Below, piece by piece: positions 25,738 through 30,769 of a stretch of 33,969 nt of DNA (position 1 is its first letter; the number at the start of each line of letters is the position of its first letter). The position numbers were made by a program, and so were the translations under genes. The DNA comes from Terriglobia bacterium (GTDB taxonomy: Bacteria > Acidobacteriota > Terriglobia > Bryobacterales > Bryobacteraceae), in the NCBI GenBank assembly GCA_019242155.1, contig JAFAWA010000545.1:1-33969 (forward strand), given 5' to 3'. The notes beneath the pieces are model-generated. The model saw only the letters and a program-made list of their open reading frames with translations, had not been told where the DNA came from and ran no database searches.

Positions 25738-26655
25738 ATGGCCAACAGCACCATAGGGTTCGTGGGGTTTGGCGAGGCGGCGTTTCATATCACGCGCGGG
25801 CTGGGAGAAGCCGGCCTTGCGAACTTTATCGCTTACGACATTCACACCCACACTGCCGGACGCGGTGAAAAGATCCAGCGCCGCGCTGAGGAGACCGGAA
25901 CGCAGCTAGCCGGTTCGAGCGCCGAGTTGGCCGCCGGTGCCGATTGGATCTGGTCGGCGGTGACTTCGGATCAAGCCGCTGCCGCAGCGGCCCAAACGGC
26001 GCCGTTTCTCACGACGCGGCATCTATACGCCGACCTGAATTCTGTTTCGCCGGCGGTAAAGCAATCGATTGCGGCTACTGTCGGCAGGACTGGTGCGCGC
26101 TTCGTGGAAATCGCTATGATGCAGCCGGTCCCGCCCTATGGCCACAGAGTTCCGATCCTGGCTGGTGGACCGGCGGCCGCGGAATTCCGCGAGCGCATGG
26201 AGCTCTACGGCATGCGTATACGCATCACGTCCCAGGAAGTCGGCGCCGCGGCCGCTACCAAAATGTTCCGCAGCATCATGATTAAGGGCCTGGAGGCACT
26301 CATCACCGAATGCGTACTCGGCGCGGGCCGTTATGGAGCCGAGCAGGCCGTGTTTGCTTCGCTGGCCGAGACTTATCCGGGCATCGATTGGCCGGCACTT
26401 GCCGATTACATGATCGGCCGTGTGGTGGAGCATGGCGAGCGGCGCGCGCGGGAGATGGAGGAGGTGGCGGAAACTCTGGAGTCGATCGGGATCGAGCCGA
26501 TTATGGCATTAGCCACGGCGCGCCGGCAGGAGTGGAGCGCCAAGGTGGGATTGAAGCACTATTTTGACTGTGAACCGCCGCGCAATTACCGCGAGTTTCT
26601 GGACGCAGTCGCTAAGCTGGAACGAAGGCCGGCACTGATTGAGACCGCGGGGTGA
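25738..26655 (+). CDS. NAD(P)-dependent beta-hydroxyacid dehydrogenase-like protein with DUF1932 domain
   Basis: 305 residues. The N-terminal Rossmann domain begins IGFVGFGEAAFHI (GxGxxA/G dinucleotide motif). The central EIAMMQPVPPYGHRVPILAGG region resembles the 6-phosphogluconate/3-hydroxyisobutyrate dehydrogenase substrate loop. The conserved lysine is probably Lys180 or Lys186 in AAATKMFRSIMIKGLEAL. The C-terminal half (about 190-275) is DUF1932-like. These enzymes oxidise or reduce beta-hydroxyacids with NAD(P); the substrate here is unknown. Its last 70 bases overlap the end of the convergent CHAT gene. The arrangement after the dioxygenase and dehydratase suggests but does not prove a common transcript. 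Confidence 0.85.
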   Translation: MANSTIGFVGFGEAAFHITRGLGEAGLANFIAYDIHTHTAGRGEKIQRRAEETGTQLAGSSAELAAGADWIWSAVTSDQAAAAAAQTAPFLTTRHLYADLNSVSPAVKQSIAATVGRTGARFVEIAMMQPVPPYGHRVPILAGGPAAAEFRERMELYGMRIRITSQEVGAAAATKMFRSIMIKGLEALITECVLGAGRYGAEQAVFASLAETYPGIDWPALADYMIGRVVEHGERRAREMEEVAETLESIGIEPIMALATARRQEWSAKVGLKHYFDCEPPRNYREFLDAVAKLERRPALIETAG

Positions 26656-29135
26656 CTCTCGAGCGCCCCTTCATAGAACTGAAATGCACCCCAATAATAC
26701 GGATCGCCGTACTTTACGCCCCGAATTAGGTTGAGCTTTGCGTAACGGAGGGCTTCGGCAGGCGGCATCGATGCCGCGAGGCCTGCGTACAGGTCCTGCA
26801 TGATCCGGGGCGACGAGTAGTCGCTCACGTCCCATAGTCCCGCGATTACCCCATGCGCGCCCGATTGCAAAAACGCCCACGCAAAGCCGACTAGTCCTTC
26901 GCCTGCATACGTGCGCGCGCCCGCGCTGTGACAGGCTGAGATCGTGACCAGCTCAGCCGTGACCGGGGTGTTCAACACTTGCTTCGCGAGCAGTTTGCCG
27001 CTGTTGTTTTCTTTGGAAAGAATGATCGCCGAATCGAACGGCGAGTTGCGGTTGGCGGTGGCATGCGCAGTGAACTGGATGTAGGCGTAGTCGCCTGGCT
27101 GCGAACGCATATATGCGGCTGGGGTGGCGGCCGCCCCGCGAAGCACTTCCTGCCGTACGCCCGAGAACTGCTTCTCGATCCCTTCCATCTCCTGCTGTGC
27201 GTGGAGCAGTTTGGGGTATTCCGAGTTCCATTGGATCGCGTCGCCCACTAACAGCAGTGACCGGTCGGAACGCGGTTTCATGCGGCGAGTGAGGAGCAAT
27301 TCGAGTGATGGAGCGACGGCTATGGTCGCATCTTCGATCCAGTACTGCGGAGGATCGCCGGGAACGGGCAGAGTCTCGAAATTGAGCGCATACAGCGGCC
27401 CATCGGGAACGACCACATATTTGCCGCCCGGTTTCAGTACACCAGGATGGGCTGCGAGAAGCACTTGAAAAAGCTTCGCGCCCGCTTTGGATTCTTCGGG
27501 CCGCAGCGGACCGGCGCGTTCGATTCCGGCCTGATATCGATCAACGAGAGTGCGAATTTCCGACTCGGGGGGCAGTGAGAATGATGTGAACTGAGTTCCG
27601 GAGATGGCCCAAAGATACGAGCCGGCCCGTCCTACCCAGTAAGCCAGAAACGTAGTGCCGCTCGCCTGCGCGGCGGCCTGGTATTCAGCCACTTTGTGGT
27701 TGCGAATCTTCGAATGGCGTACATTCAAACGTTCGCGTAGCAAACCGGCACGGCTCGATTCGGCCGCCGCGAACGCTGCCGCCTGATCGCCATAGTCCAT
27801 CAGAAACTTGACATACTCGTGATGGACATCGATCAGCGAGGAGAGATAACTCAGCCTGTTCTCATCGTTATGTAAGCTCCCGCTGGTTCCGTCTGCGAGG
27901 TCGAGTCCGGCTTCAAACCCGCGTTTCGCATCGCTAAGCTGGTGCTTACTCAGGTACAGAGAGGCAAGCGAAGAGTAGGCATTCAGTCTAGCCGAAATAT
28001 CTCCTTCTGTTTCGCCAAGCTGCTGAAGAATTCGCTCCGCTTTCTGATATTCACCTTTGTGGGCCTCAATCCTGCCCGCGTTCAGCACTGCCCACGGTTG
28101 CGTTTCTGCACGATCGATCTGCTTTTCGAGTGCCAGCGCCTGATTGTTGAACTGTTCCGCTTCGGTCCACTTCTGTTGTTCTATTAAGGCCTGGGCGAGG
28201 TCGCTCAACCAAGTAGCTTCGAAGTCCTGCCGGCGGCCCTTGGCCAACGCGGCAGCCTTTCTGTAGTAGTCAGCAGCCTTTGCGAAATCGCGCTCGGCAG
28301 AGTAAAGGTTGCCCAGGCTCCCGAACACTAAGTGCCGGTCTTCGGGATCGGCTAATTCTAACGCTTCGTTGTACAGTCCTAGGGCCTTGTCGAATTGGCC
28401 TAATTGGTAGTAGCACCATCCCAGACTGACCATTACATTGGCTGCTCGCGCATTTTGATTCGGCTTGCGAAATGCGGCGAGAGACTTTTCCAGTAGCGCA
28501 ACCGCATCCTCGAAATGACCGGCGGTTGCCAGTAATTCGCCCCGATAATGCAGGGTGAAGGGTTCAAGCGAATGATCATGAGTTGTTCGGGCGTACTCTT
28601 CCGCTTTCGCCAGACACTGCTCGGCCCCTCCCAGTTGATGGAGTTGGATCAGCACATAGGCTCTGCGAATCTCGAGCCGGGCGGCCATGTTGGCATCGCC
28701 TGTGTGAACTGCCGTATCTTTTGCCAGCAGAAGGTGCTGGTCTGCATCACGAAACCGTCCGAGGGCAGCTTCGTATGACGCCTCTTCACGGAGGAGCAGC
28801 GTGCGAAGGTCATCATCCGCACCCGCAAACGGGGAAAACTGCTTCAGCCAGGCAAGGGCGGCTTCGAGGCGGTCCGCTTCCTTCAACAATTCCGCTTTTT
28901 CAAGGAGTAACTGCCAGTGTGTCCGGCCTGTAGAATTCTCGAATCCCAAGGCCTCTTCCGTCAAGTGCAGGGCTTGGTCAATCTTGCCCTGAGATTCCAG
29001 AGCCTCAATCCTTCGCAATGCCGGCCGGTTGCACCCTGCAAACAGCAACAGCACTGTGAAACCGCCGATCCATAGCTGGTTACGGATCGGTTTGGCCCAT
29101 GCCGCCCCCGCCACCTCCGGCCACAATGCTTGCAT
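26586..29135 (-). CDS. TPR-CHAT lipoprotein (caspase-like protease domain)
   Basis: 849 residues from the ATG at 29135. That start puts a membrane helix and lipobox-like LLLFAGC (Cys35) at the N-terminus; an upstream ATG at 29210 with GGGAGG would add 25 residues and overlap the preceding gene further. About 40-420 is a run of TPR-like helical hairpins (LGWCYYQLGQFDKALGLYNE, DFAKAADYYRKAAAL). The C-terminal CHAT domain has the catalytic pair His691 in QFTAHATAN and Cys735 in TISACHSAG, followed by GEGLVGFAWAFLQSGAHGVIAGLWDV, which is characteristic of the family. CHAT domains are caspase-like cysteine peptidases. As a lipoprotein the enzyme would act outside the cytoplasm. It is the third gene of a unit with an anti-sigma-like protein and an unrecognised protein. 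Confidence 0.9.
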   Translation of the reverse strand: MQALWPEVAGAAWAKPIRNQLWIGGFTVLLLFAGCNRPALRRIEALESQGKIDQALHLTEEALGFENSTGRTHWQLLLEKAELLKEADRLEAALAWLKQFSPFAGADDDLRTLLLREEASYEAALGRFRDADQHLLLAKDTAVHTGDANMAARLEIRRAYVLIQLHQLGGAEQCLAKAEEYARTTHDHSLEPFTLHYRGELLATAGHFEDAVALLEKSLAAFRKPNQNARAANVMVSLGWCYYQLGQFDKALGLYNEALELADPEDRHLVFGSLGNLYSAERDFAKAADYYRKAAALAKGRRQDFEATWLSDLAQALIEQQKWTEAEQFNNQALALEKQIDRAETQPWAVLNAGRIEAHKGEYQKAERILQQLGETEGDISARLNAYSSLASLYLSKHQLSDAKRGFEAGLDLADGTSGSLHNDENRLSYLSSLIDVHHEYVKFLMDYGDQAAAFAAAESSRAGLLRERLNVRHSKIRNHKVAEYQAAAQASGTTFLAYWVGRAGSYLWAISGTQFTSFSLPPESEIRTLVDRYQAGIERAGPLRPEESKAGAKLFQVLLAAHPGVLKPGGKYVVVPDGPLYALNFETLPVPGDPPQYWIEDATIAVAPSLELLLTRRMKPRSDRSLLLVGDAIQWNSEYPKLLHAQQEMEGIEKQFSGVRQEVLRGAAATPAAYMRSQPGDYAYIQFTAHATANRNSPFDSAIILSKENNSGKLLAKQVLNTPVTAELVTISACHSAGARTYAGEGLVGFAWAFLQSGAHGVIAGLWDVSDYSSPRIMQDLYAGLAASMPPAEALRYAKLNLIRGVKYGDPYYWGAFQFYEGALESHPAVSISAGLRSSLATASRNSR

Positions 29136-29907
29136 CCTGCGGCGAACCGAGCTTGGCACGGAGCATGGTGACGCGCCGCTCTTCGGGACTGACGTACAGT
29201 TCGCCAACATGGATCCTCCCAAAGTTGTGAACCGAAATCACGCTGCCATGTACTTGGATACCGGCCACGTTCGGATCTACGATCTTAAACAAGGGTACGA
29301 TCGTATGGCCGCGAAATTCCGGCAACTCGTCCTTCTTTTTATGCAGCAGCCAGCGGAAGAATTTGTGCTTGTCGTCCGGCACGTCGTTCGCGCTTCCGAT
29401 GAAGCCGTGGGCATAAAACGTTTGACGATAATCCTTGTTGTCTGCGAAATGCTTGCGCAGATCCGACATCGTGCCGTTGCTATGGTAGGTGTCGGCCAGA
29501 GGAATGAGCGTAATCTCGTGGCCCAGAATGCGCAAATTCTCAATCCGCGAGCCTTTTGGGGAGATGAAGGGCTCCTCCTGGTCGGGCGAATGCGTAACTG
29601 AGAGTCGAGCGACTACAGAATCCGCCGTGAGGACATCGGAAATATTGAACCCTTGTAACTCGGCATGAACAATGGCGTAATGATTGGTGGTGTTCGGCTT
29701 TTGGCCGGCCTCCGCGCGCGAACGGGCACCGTTGTGAGACACGATATCGCGCAGATTATACGGGTCGGCCTTTGCGGTGCCATAACCTCCGTTCGGAGAT
29801 ACGAAAGTCGGCGCTTGAACGTCAATGTCCTGCTGAAAAGGATGGTTGACCTTGCCTTCTAAGGCTACAGCGTGGGCGTTGTAGTGAAACCTCGGATCGT
29901 TGTTCAT
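29080..29907 (-). CDS. Unrecognised 275-residue protein in the anti-sigma/CHAT gene unit
   Basis: No signal peptide or membrane helix is visible and I do not recognise the family. The protein is rich in beta-prone segments with motifs such as DVLTADSVVARLS, GSRIENLRILGHEITLIP and IVPLFKIVDPNVAG. A stretch of lysine/aspartate-rich helix (KHKFFRWLLHKKKDEL) lies in the middle. The C-terminus ends in a glycine run (VAGGGGGGMGQTDP). It starts three bases after the anti-sigma-like gene and its end overlaps the CHAT gene by at least 56 bases, so the three are co-expressed. It may be a substrate, inhibitor or partner of the CHAT enzyme; this is conjecture. Confidence 0.75.
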   Translation of the reverse strand: MNNDPRFHYNAHAVALEGKVNHPFQQDIDVQAPTFVSPNGGYGTAKADPYNLRDIVSHNGARSRAEAGQKPNTTNHYAIVHAELQGFNISDVLTADSVVARLSVTHSPDQEEPFISPKGSRIENLRILGHEITLIPLADTYHSNGTMSDLRKHFADNKDYRQTFYAHGFIGSANDVPDDKHKFFRWLLHKKKDELPEFRGHTIVPLFKIVDPNVAGIQVHGSVISVHNFGRIHVGELYVSPEERRVTMLRAKLGSPQDASIVAGGGGGGMGQTDP

Positions 29908-29910
29908 CAG

Positions 29911-30567
29911 CTATTCCGTCAACGTGAAAGGAACCTGTGCAACCGGGGTCTTCTCCGCGGAACCTGCGGGAATGCCGTAAATCCTCAGAACATACGAACC
30001 GGTGCGGAAATCCTCCAGCCTCACCGCTACCGACAATGCTTCGGCCGTGGCTGGTGTCCCCGCCTTGTAAATAACCCGCTGATCCCCGGCTCGCTCAATT
30101 TCGCCTTGATACCGCGAGTAAGTTATCTCCCACTCATGTGGAATGGTAAGAGCCATCATGCCTGTTCGCTTGGAAAAGGTCAATCCCTCACCGGAGCGCG
30201 CGGCTCTTACCGAAACGGCAGGCGCTATTACTAAGTTCGATGTAGCTGGGCTGTGCACGAACTGTGCCGCTGCCAGGACGAGGGCCAGGGTCCAGCCCGC
30301 GAAAGCCGCAGCCGGCGCAAAGCCCCATCCGCCGCCCCAAGCGAAGTTAATCTTCTTTCTTTGGGGAACCACGGCCCGGGGCTGCTCTCGGAGGACTGCC
30401 TTCGCATCTTCCACGAGCAGCGCGCCGGTTTCCAACGCCTCGGCACATTCCGGACACTCGAAAAAATGCTGTTCAAACTCTTCTCGTTCTGCCTCGCTCA
30501 TCTCACCGAGCAAGTATTGTTCGGCGGCGAATCTCCGGTTCGCCTCAACATGATCCATTATCTGCAT
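29911..30567 (-). CDS. Anti-sigma-factor-like protein with zf-HC2-type zinc finger and one membrane helix
   Basis: 218 residues. The N-terminal domain has the zinc motif HFFECPEC (His34, Cys38, Cys41) after a helix (LGEMSEAEREEFEQ), as in zf-HC2 anti-sigma factors that bind ECF sigma factors. A membrane helix spans about 82-104, then comes a periplasmic beta-rich domain of about 110 residues (LTIPHEWEITYSRYQGEI, RLEDFRTGSYVLRIYGIP). An ATG four codons in is another possible start. Partner ECF sigma genes usually sit directly upstream; here none is present in the window, and the gene is divergent from a SYLF gene. It may therefore respond to an envelope signal with an unlinked sigma factor, or have changed role. 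Confidence 0.85.
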   Translation of the reverse strand: MQIMDHVEANRRFAAEQYLLGEMSEAEREEFEQHFFECPECAEALETGALLVEDAKAVLREQPRAVVPQRKKINFAWGGGWGFAPAAAFAGWTLALVLAAAQFVHSPATSNLVIAPAVSVRAARSGEGLTFSKRTGMMALTIPHEWEITYSRYQGEIERAGDQRVIYKAGTPATAEALSVAVRLEDFRTGSYVLRIYGIPAGSAEKTPVAQVPFTLTE

Positions 30568-30630
30568 GTTAGCTTAAACGGTCGGCGCCGCCGGCACCTG
30601 GCCGGCCTTTGCCGTTCACTTATATGTGAC

Positions 30631-30647
30631 ACGCAGGCCGCCTGCGT
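30631..30647. promoter_or_regulatory. Perfect 17-base palindrome in the divergent promoter region
   Basis: ACGCAGGC-c-GCCTGCGT is a perfect eight-pair inverted repeat with one central base, about 65 bases upstream of the anti-sigma-like start and 120 bases before the SYLF start. On the minus strand, TGTAAC flanks its left side, which recalls ECF-type -35 elements. It could be an operator shared by both divergent transcripts. Confidence 0.4.
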
Positions 30648-30769
30648 TACAAAGGCAAATTGCAGGTTTCGAAGTGCCGTGTCCTGCTATCTACTTCGGT
30701 ATCTTAAGACTTGTCCGAGTTTGGTCATGAGCTGTCAATAACTGTCGAGCCGCGCGTTACCATATACCC

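Follow-up and report, generated by a model that had tools for sequence, protein, structure and literature searches.

Three closely packed genes on the reverse strand of a 33,969-nt stretch of Terriglobia DNA (contig JAFAWA010000545.1; the whole stretch is called the window below) raise two questions. Their products are an anti-sigma-like membrane protein, a protein without a named family, and a lipoprotein with TPRs and a CHAT domain. Which sigma factor do they serve, and what does the predicted protease cut? The tight packing described in the first-pass annotation was borne out in coordinates and strand: a 3-nt gap separates the anti-sigma and middle genes, and the TPR-CHAT gene overlaps the middle gene. 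All three genes are intact, open frames. It had also been pointed out that no ECF sigma gene lies beside the anti-sigma gene, and the neighbors are indeed genes for a DUF1932 dehydrogenase and a Ysc84 protein. Hereafter, the genome of the window is G000, and G564, G565, G566, and G567 are its genus-mates (Table 1).

Table 1 Positions of the genes, motifs, and promoter element of the window, and of genes behind the same type of element elsewhere (positions without a locus prefix are those of the window).
Feature	Position	Strand	Evidence or remark
TPR-CHAT lipoprotein gene	26586..29222	-	CHAT E 2.9e-44; TPRs
Predicted CHAT catalytic Cys764 (Cys735 in the first-pass numbering)	26931..26933	-	Invariant, 89/89
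Predicted CHAT catalytic His720 (His691 in the first-pass numbering)	27063..27065	-	Invariant, 89/89
Lipobox cysteine (FAGC, residue 64 from TTG)	29031..29033	-	Sequence, after hydrophobic stretch
Middle gene, 275 aa, unnamed beta-rich family	29080..29907	-	Profile matches and structure model
ZAS-type (zf-HC2) membrane anti-sigma gene, 218 aa	29911..30567	-	PF13490 E 2e-7 and structure model
Arg124 in outer stalk, candidate protease site region (AARSGEG)	30196..30198	-	Arg at aligned column 85/95, following Gly 81/94
HxxxCxxC zinc/sigma-binding motif (H34, C38, C41)	30445..30468	-	94/95 family rows
ECF-type promoter TTGTAACG-N15-TCAC upstream of anti-sigma gene	30626..30652	-	Only exact TTGTAACGN{14,18}TCAC match in the 5.77-Mb genome
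Gene P or homologous stretch, 135-179 aa as called	L262:2476-2925 (G000:C475), L263:7283-7690, L203:4007-4417, L204:4239-4778		
MliC-like genes behind the element	L328:1817-2203 (G155), L070:10763-11191, L067:3487-3873		PF09864 E 7e-10 (G155 copy)

With the middle protein as the query, matches were obtained in 22 of 396 genomes of the phylum, its own genome counted, and a profile of 62 middle proteins found members in 106 of the 237 genomes of the family to which the window belongs. A scan of the named genomes gave 114 stretches, 79 of which were confirmed as loci of the module, and 40 family loci picked by us brought the set to 119. The first-pass annotation had left the gene order in other genomes to be checked; it proved to be conserved and to include a fourth gene, since the full order ECF sigma, zf-HC2 anti-sigma, middle protein, and TPR-CHAT on the same strand was present in 99 of the 119 loci (71/79 and 28/40). 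Among the 20 exceptions, six were cut by contig ends (L105, L156, L171, L211, L213, and L234), the anti-sigma gene had moved in two (L163 and L164), and eight had the three genes in order with no adjacent sigma gene (L202, L205, L214, L220, L229, L231, L238, and L240). L125 had no CHAT gene after the middle gene, L124 no anti-sigma gene, and L223 only the middle and CHAT genes. The last, L137, had broken frames, with the middle and CHAT genes run together in one ORF (L137:6926-9520), which probably reflects frame errors in a metagenome bin; a real fusion is possible. No fifth conserved gene was seen, the widest flanking family occurring in 17 of the 119 loci. A flanking family with a weak DUF1360 match was found near the module in 12 of the 119 loci. 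By record title, 77 of the 79 confirmed loci were from Acidobacteriota, one was from Luteimonas (L165), and one was from Myxococcota (L170). The modules of the latter two, outside Acidobacteriota, were complete, which suggests cross-phylum transfer or misbinned DNA.

The first-pass annotation had described a unit with no linked sigma factor. That the lack of a sigma gene belongs to the design of the unit was not supported: most relatives have an ECF sigma gene directly upstream, and the genome of the window encodes a sigma factor of the module type at another place. Within the genus, the sigma gene is adjacent to the module in G565 and G566 and not in G000, G564, and G567; in G567, an ECF gene of a different kind lies ca. 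0.85 kb upstream with one gene between. A sigma profile (A4) built from 24 operon sigmas retrieved a single gene of G000, on contig C475, with 257 bits; the next best match had 82 bits, and the operon sigmas of the genus-mates scored 253-257 bits. The C475 protein reached 52.8 bits with the ECF sigma-70 model TIGR02937 (cut-off, 42.9), while its Pfam matches for regions 2 and 4 stayed under the cut-off. A Sigma70_r2 search missed this gene and, taken alone, would have backed the absence of a sigma factor. In the sigma tree, the C475 gene grouped with the operon sigmas of the genus and family (UFBoot 98; 97 for the trio of G000, G564, and G567), in a topology where two of the three outgroups were placed inside on a long branch.

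The same pairing was seen beyond the genus. Ten of the 11 genomes with an unlinked module (G000, G564, G567, G454, G460, G439, G623, G337, G155, and G553) hold a module-type sigma elsewhere, scoring 216 to 260 bits (over 200); the exception, G621, has the module and no such sigma. By comparison, none of the 20 family genomes without the module reached 200 bits (184 at best, in G423; 117 or less in the rest). Fisher's test for 10/11 versus 0/20 gave a p value of 2.5e-7, uncorrected for kinship, with 11 of the 20 module-less genomes coming from one genus. G536, whose contig stops at the anti-sigma gene, was left out of this comparison. Among the genomes with an intact operon, 11 of 11 had no sigma above 200 bits other than that of the operon, except that G544 has another close to its second middle gene; an additional unlinked sigma was present in G564 and G566. 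The unlinked sigmas of G454 and G460 (L289, G454:C388; L290, G460:C129) contain an in-frame stop, which is either a sign of a decaying sigma or a sequence error. No zf gene of the module family was present in the stretches of 2.3 to 3.6 kb around the 11 unlinked sigmas. The missing adjacent sigma of the window is a local rearrangement of a split four-part module, and we infer that the C475 sigma pairs in trans with the anti-sigma protein of the window.

The sigma gene and the protease half have separate histories. In the CHAT tree, printed with no support values, the unit of the window was placed with L202, L205, L231, L234, and L240, and the anti-sigmas nearest to that of the window were those of L202, L205, and L231 rather than the operon ones of the genus-mates. 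The anti-sigma, middle, and CHAT lineage of the window thus differs from the operons of the genus-mates, whereas the lone sigma groups with them, so that the two were not simply co-inherited; this fits an exchange of the protease half. Sigma and anti-sigma distances over 34 loci correlated with r = 0.72; the row of the window gave 0.68 and that of G623 gave -0.05 (no correlation).

The upstream regions of the three genus members without an adjacent sigma (G000, G564, and G567) have the element TTGTAACG-N15-TCAC in common. The pattern TTGTAACGN{14,18}TCAC occurred four times in G564 and twice in G567, once each before the anti-sigma gene and thus at three and one other places; it occurred once, elsewhere, in G566 and not at all in G565, and the reversed control gave 0 or 1 per genome. 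In the wider set, TG[A/T]AAC-N16-[TGC]CAC preceded the anti-sigma gene in 11 of the 15 loci without a scored adjacent sigma, contig-cut loci included (shuffles, 0.01), and in 44 of the 101 loci with one, mostly just past the sigma stop codon (shuffles, 0.12). Of 116 loci, 54 had the stricter TG[A/T]AACG-N15-[TGC]CAC upstream of the anti-sigma gene, where ca. 0.9 were expected from the background of 0.0075 per 260 nt in natural DNA of the same loci; in the other 62, it was not found there. The stricter form also occurred before the sigma gene in 8 of 101 and after the CHAT gene in 13 of 102, so that 71 of the 116 loci carry it at one or more of the three sites. The longer pattern TGWAACG-N15-TCACTA had 24 matches in 14 genomes, as against 1 when it was reversed as a control; module or sigma sites account for 7 of these 24. 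The other matches (G000:C472:6343-6370 and 16 more places) are away from the module and possibly represent a wider regulon; the C472 match sits within a large frame of the opposite strand and is perhaps due to chance.

Two kinds of genes recur behind the element. In Edaphobacter (G163), the element after the CHAT gene leads to a gene for a lysozyme-inhibitor-like (MliC) protein, and in G155 and G337, which have the module at another place, the sigma gene is followed by an element of this type and then by the same kind of MliC-like gene. This arrangement suggests lysozyme or wall damage as the signal. The second is gene P, which had no match in Pfam or NCBIfam and which we take by eye to be PilZ-like. 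G565 and G566 have the order sigma, anti-sigma, middle, CHAT, element, and gene P; G564 has sigma, element, and gene P; and in G000, the element directly follows the sigma gene and precedes a stretch homologous to gene P. This layout at the sigma site of G000 indicates that the native anti-sigma, middle, and CHAT genes were apparently lost there, and that the three-gene version in the window stands under the same type of promoter. A DUF1360-like gene was also observed behind the element in G594 (L331:1553-1951) and G601 (L108:4353-4757).

The zinc-finger membrane protein of the first-pass annotation was confirmed as a zf-HC2 match (E 2e-7) with one transmembrane helix. In the structure model (58-row alignment, pLDDT 80.6), helices at residues 6-61 form the N-terminal domain, a helix at 86-105 spans the hydrophobic stretch, and a low-confidence stalk leads to strands at 129-217 that form an outer domain resembling the Ig/fn3-like fold. 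The HxxxCxxC motif lies in the N-terminal helical domain, as in ZAS anti-sigma factors; the window is among the 94 of 95 rows that have it, and the single miss (L105) is truncated by a contig end. The module ECF sigma expected of such a protein is encoded in the operon in most relatives and, in the genome of the window, by the unlinked gene at C475, whose product is the putative partner. Binding and inhibition of this sigma factor are predicted activities. In the outer stalk, the conserved Arg-Gly would be a natural candidate cleavage site, yet it varies among relatives: the Arg of the window stands one position before the aligned column, and in one group (6/86) the column is Trp or Tyr without a clear matching change in the CHAT protein.

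The frame of the TPR-CHAT gene as listed begins with TTG at 29222, and later possible starts are ATG 29210, ATG 29135, and GTG 29114. The true start is probably GTG 29114, which in our judgment yields the most ordinary lipoprotein signal, or another up to 29210. The hydrophobic signal ending in a lipobox cysteine marks the protein of the window as a predicted lipoprotein. A lipobox was detected by a simple pattern, which missed some that were visible by eye, in 32 of the 89 rows of the CHAT family, a few rows of which represent one genome reached twice. A hydrophobic N-terminal segment was present in 88 of the 89 by a crude hydropathy test, with exact starts unresolved in many, and the protease should therefore be exported. 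His691 and Cys735, named in the first-pass annotation, are the correct pair; the numbers fit an internal ATG at residue 30, and counted from TTG the residues are His720 and Cys764. With this invariant pair, the domain resembles clan CD proteases, and proteolytic activity is predicted. A sequence search of the PDB with the 321-aa CHAT domain gave nothing at E <= 0.01.

The S1 model of a separase study (PMC4626109) served as a guide to possible Arg specificity of the CHAT domain. In the CHAT family, Asp607 is present in 89 of 89 rows and residue 798 is Glu or Asp in 82 of 89. No specificity is claimed, because CHAT paralogues of the same genome mostly share such acids, with which the Arg of the anti-sigma shows no covariation. 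PADLOC applied to the system of the window returned a generic TPR match and nothing more. Two further CHAT genes of G000 (L086, C221; L090, C134) overlap ECF sigma genes and have no middle-protein match beside them; they are possibly other sigma/CHAT circuits.

From these features, we consider it an evenly balanced proposition that the three genes make up one half, anti-sigma and protease, of a conserved envelope-signaling module in which the exported CHAT protein would act as the site-1 protease of the ECF anti-sigma. In this scheme, the ZAS anti-sigma would tether the ECF sigma to the inner membrane. The TPR-CHAT protein, which is predicted to be exported and often carries a lipid anchor, would sense an envelope signal, perhaps via its TPRs, and cut the outer stalk of the anti-sigma, possibly near the Arg-Gly motif. 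Intramembrane and cytosolic proteases would then complete the degradation and free the sigma factor, which would transcribe TG[A/T]AACG-N15-[TGC]CAC promoters, namely those of the anti-sigma, middle, and CHAT genes and of neighbors including the MliC gene in Edaphobacter. In the genome of the window, the sigma would act in trans from C475. The signal-controlled proteolysis proposed in the first-pass annotation thus survives in part: the conservation of the three-gene unit and the pairing of an anti-sigma with an intact caspase-like protease make it plausible. Of the two substrates suggested there, the periplasmic part of the anti-sigma is still a good candidate, whereas the middle protein is unlikely on topology.

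The order of genes and promoters also admits a reading in which the CHAT and middle proteins are outputs of the sigma factor under envelope stress, RseP/DegS-like proteases cut the anti-sigma, and CHAT stands outside the switch. The CHAT and middle genes have a sigma-type promoter upstream, as any gene of the regulon would, and the same element precedes MliC, a plain defense output. However, the CHAT gene is in the unit nearly everywhere, while other neighbors change between lineages, and a dedicated exported protease beside a membrane anti-sigma would have an obvious switching role. We regard this reading as possible but rather unlikely.

Topology bears on whether the middle protein could itself be the substrate. 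Inspection of the N-termini of 22 and 78 members of the family revealed no signal peptide; some of the starts were chosen by us, and two sequences (L171 and L092) are truncated. In the window, a stop codon two codons before the middle ATG leaves no longer ATG, GTG, or TTG start possible. Pfam families were matched by 0 of 62 members (E <= 0.1). A distant profile relation of most members to choice-of-anchor P (NF040603) was detected, with 49 of the 62 matching at E <= 0.01 and the copy of the window under the family cut-off (23.3 bits versus 27). Choice-of-anchor P proteins are surface proteins with a signal peptide, a feature that the middle family does not show. The model of the window protein is beta-rich (pLDDT 89.5). 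With Foldseek, neither PDB nor viral structures matched at E <= 1e-3 (best 0.018 and 0.015, respectively), the best Z of VIA was 5.2, and a PDB sequence search gave no usable match; the lack of a clear match for this modeled fold does not show that the fold is new. The name "glycine-tailed" used in the first-pass annotation does not describe the family, because the glycine run is peculiar to the window and the common tail is G-[CS]...N-G-x-x-x-P.

Cleavage of the middle protein by CHAT in the manner of Csx29 and Csx30, with the middle protein as the signal carrier, would agree with the adjacent, overlapping genes, with the conserved tail (in the alignment of 62 rows, G271 is invariant and N269 reaches at least 90%), and with the cutting of a neighbor-encoded protein by Csx29 described in PMC10028731. 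On topology, however, it is improbable: the middle family shows no signal peptide, whereas nearly all CHAT proteins have the hydrophobic N-terminal segment, and the tail is modeled as a strand, not as a loose end. These compartments make the outer stalk of the anti-sigma the likelier substrate. Being probably cytosolic and nearly always present, the middle protein may associate with the sigma/anti-sigma complex, or it may be one of the outputs. That the unit of the window is a relic without a working sigma is very improbable, for although no sigma is adjacent and the tree of the unit departs from that of the lone sigma, the frames are open, the zinc motif and catalytic pair are intact, the promoter element with its 15-nt spacing has been kept in three diverged genomes, and a sigma of the right type is encoded at C475.

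The proposed switch, in which CHAT would open the anti-sigma from outside, can be compared with known systems. In the RseA/DegS/RseP type, a membrane anti-sigma with a periplasmic domain receives its first cleavage outside the membrane, and DegS is a serine protease. The likeness lies in the membrane anti-sigma with a periplasmic domain; the module differs in its candidate for site-1 cleavage, a cysteine protease of the caspase-like CHAT kind, and in having a fourth conserved protein. Regulated proteolysis of this type is named in PMC10028731, which also describes how Csx30, which inhibits an ECF sigma, is cut by the TPR-CHAT protein Csx29 and the inhibition is thereby relieved. That system, Craspase (Csx29-Csx30-CASP-sigma, type III-E CRISPR), resembles the module in that a TPR-CHAT protease is encoded with an ECF sigma and its inhibitor, and differs in that the CHAT protein of the window type is predicted to be exported and that a membrane ZAS protein is the inhibitor-like component. 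The CHAT protein of the window scored 21 bits with NF041237 (Csx29; cut-off, 300) and is outside the Csx29 family, and searches of Pfam and NCBIfam with the middle protein gave no match to a Csx30 model; by analogy, the CHAT protein may nevertheless work like Csx29. ECF54 likewise has a CHAT protein in its gene context, together with a subtilase and a carboxypeptidase, and proteolytic control without an anti-sigma has been proposed in PMC8999054; the present module includes a ZAS anti-sigma gene and so departs from ECF54. In the literature searched, mostly papers outside subscription, no description of the module was found, and the CRISPR-bound circuit of PMC10028731 was the only experimentally described TPR-CHAT/ECF-sigma circuit.

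Taken as a whole, the module may tentatively be viewed as a CRISPR-free counterpart of the Craspase logic, at somewhat less than even confidence. In this four-part switch, site-1 cleavage of an ECF anti-sigma would be the dedicated task of a periplasmic, caspase-like TPR-CHAT protein. The switch, judged by its middle protein, is present in 106/237 family genomes, and its fourth part is a beta-rich protein without a recognized fold. It would be splittable, such that lineages exchange the protease half and re-wire it in trans via one shared promoter type. That such a version is chromosomal and exported suggests a protease-inhibitor-sigma logic independent of CRISPR, and the module supplies exact candidate substrates and promoters. 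The presence of a lysozyme-inhibitor gene behind the element makes cell-wall attack a first candidate for the signal. If the proposed reading is true, caspase-like proteases join the enzymes that release sigma factors.
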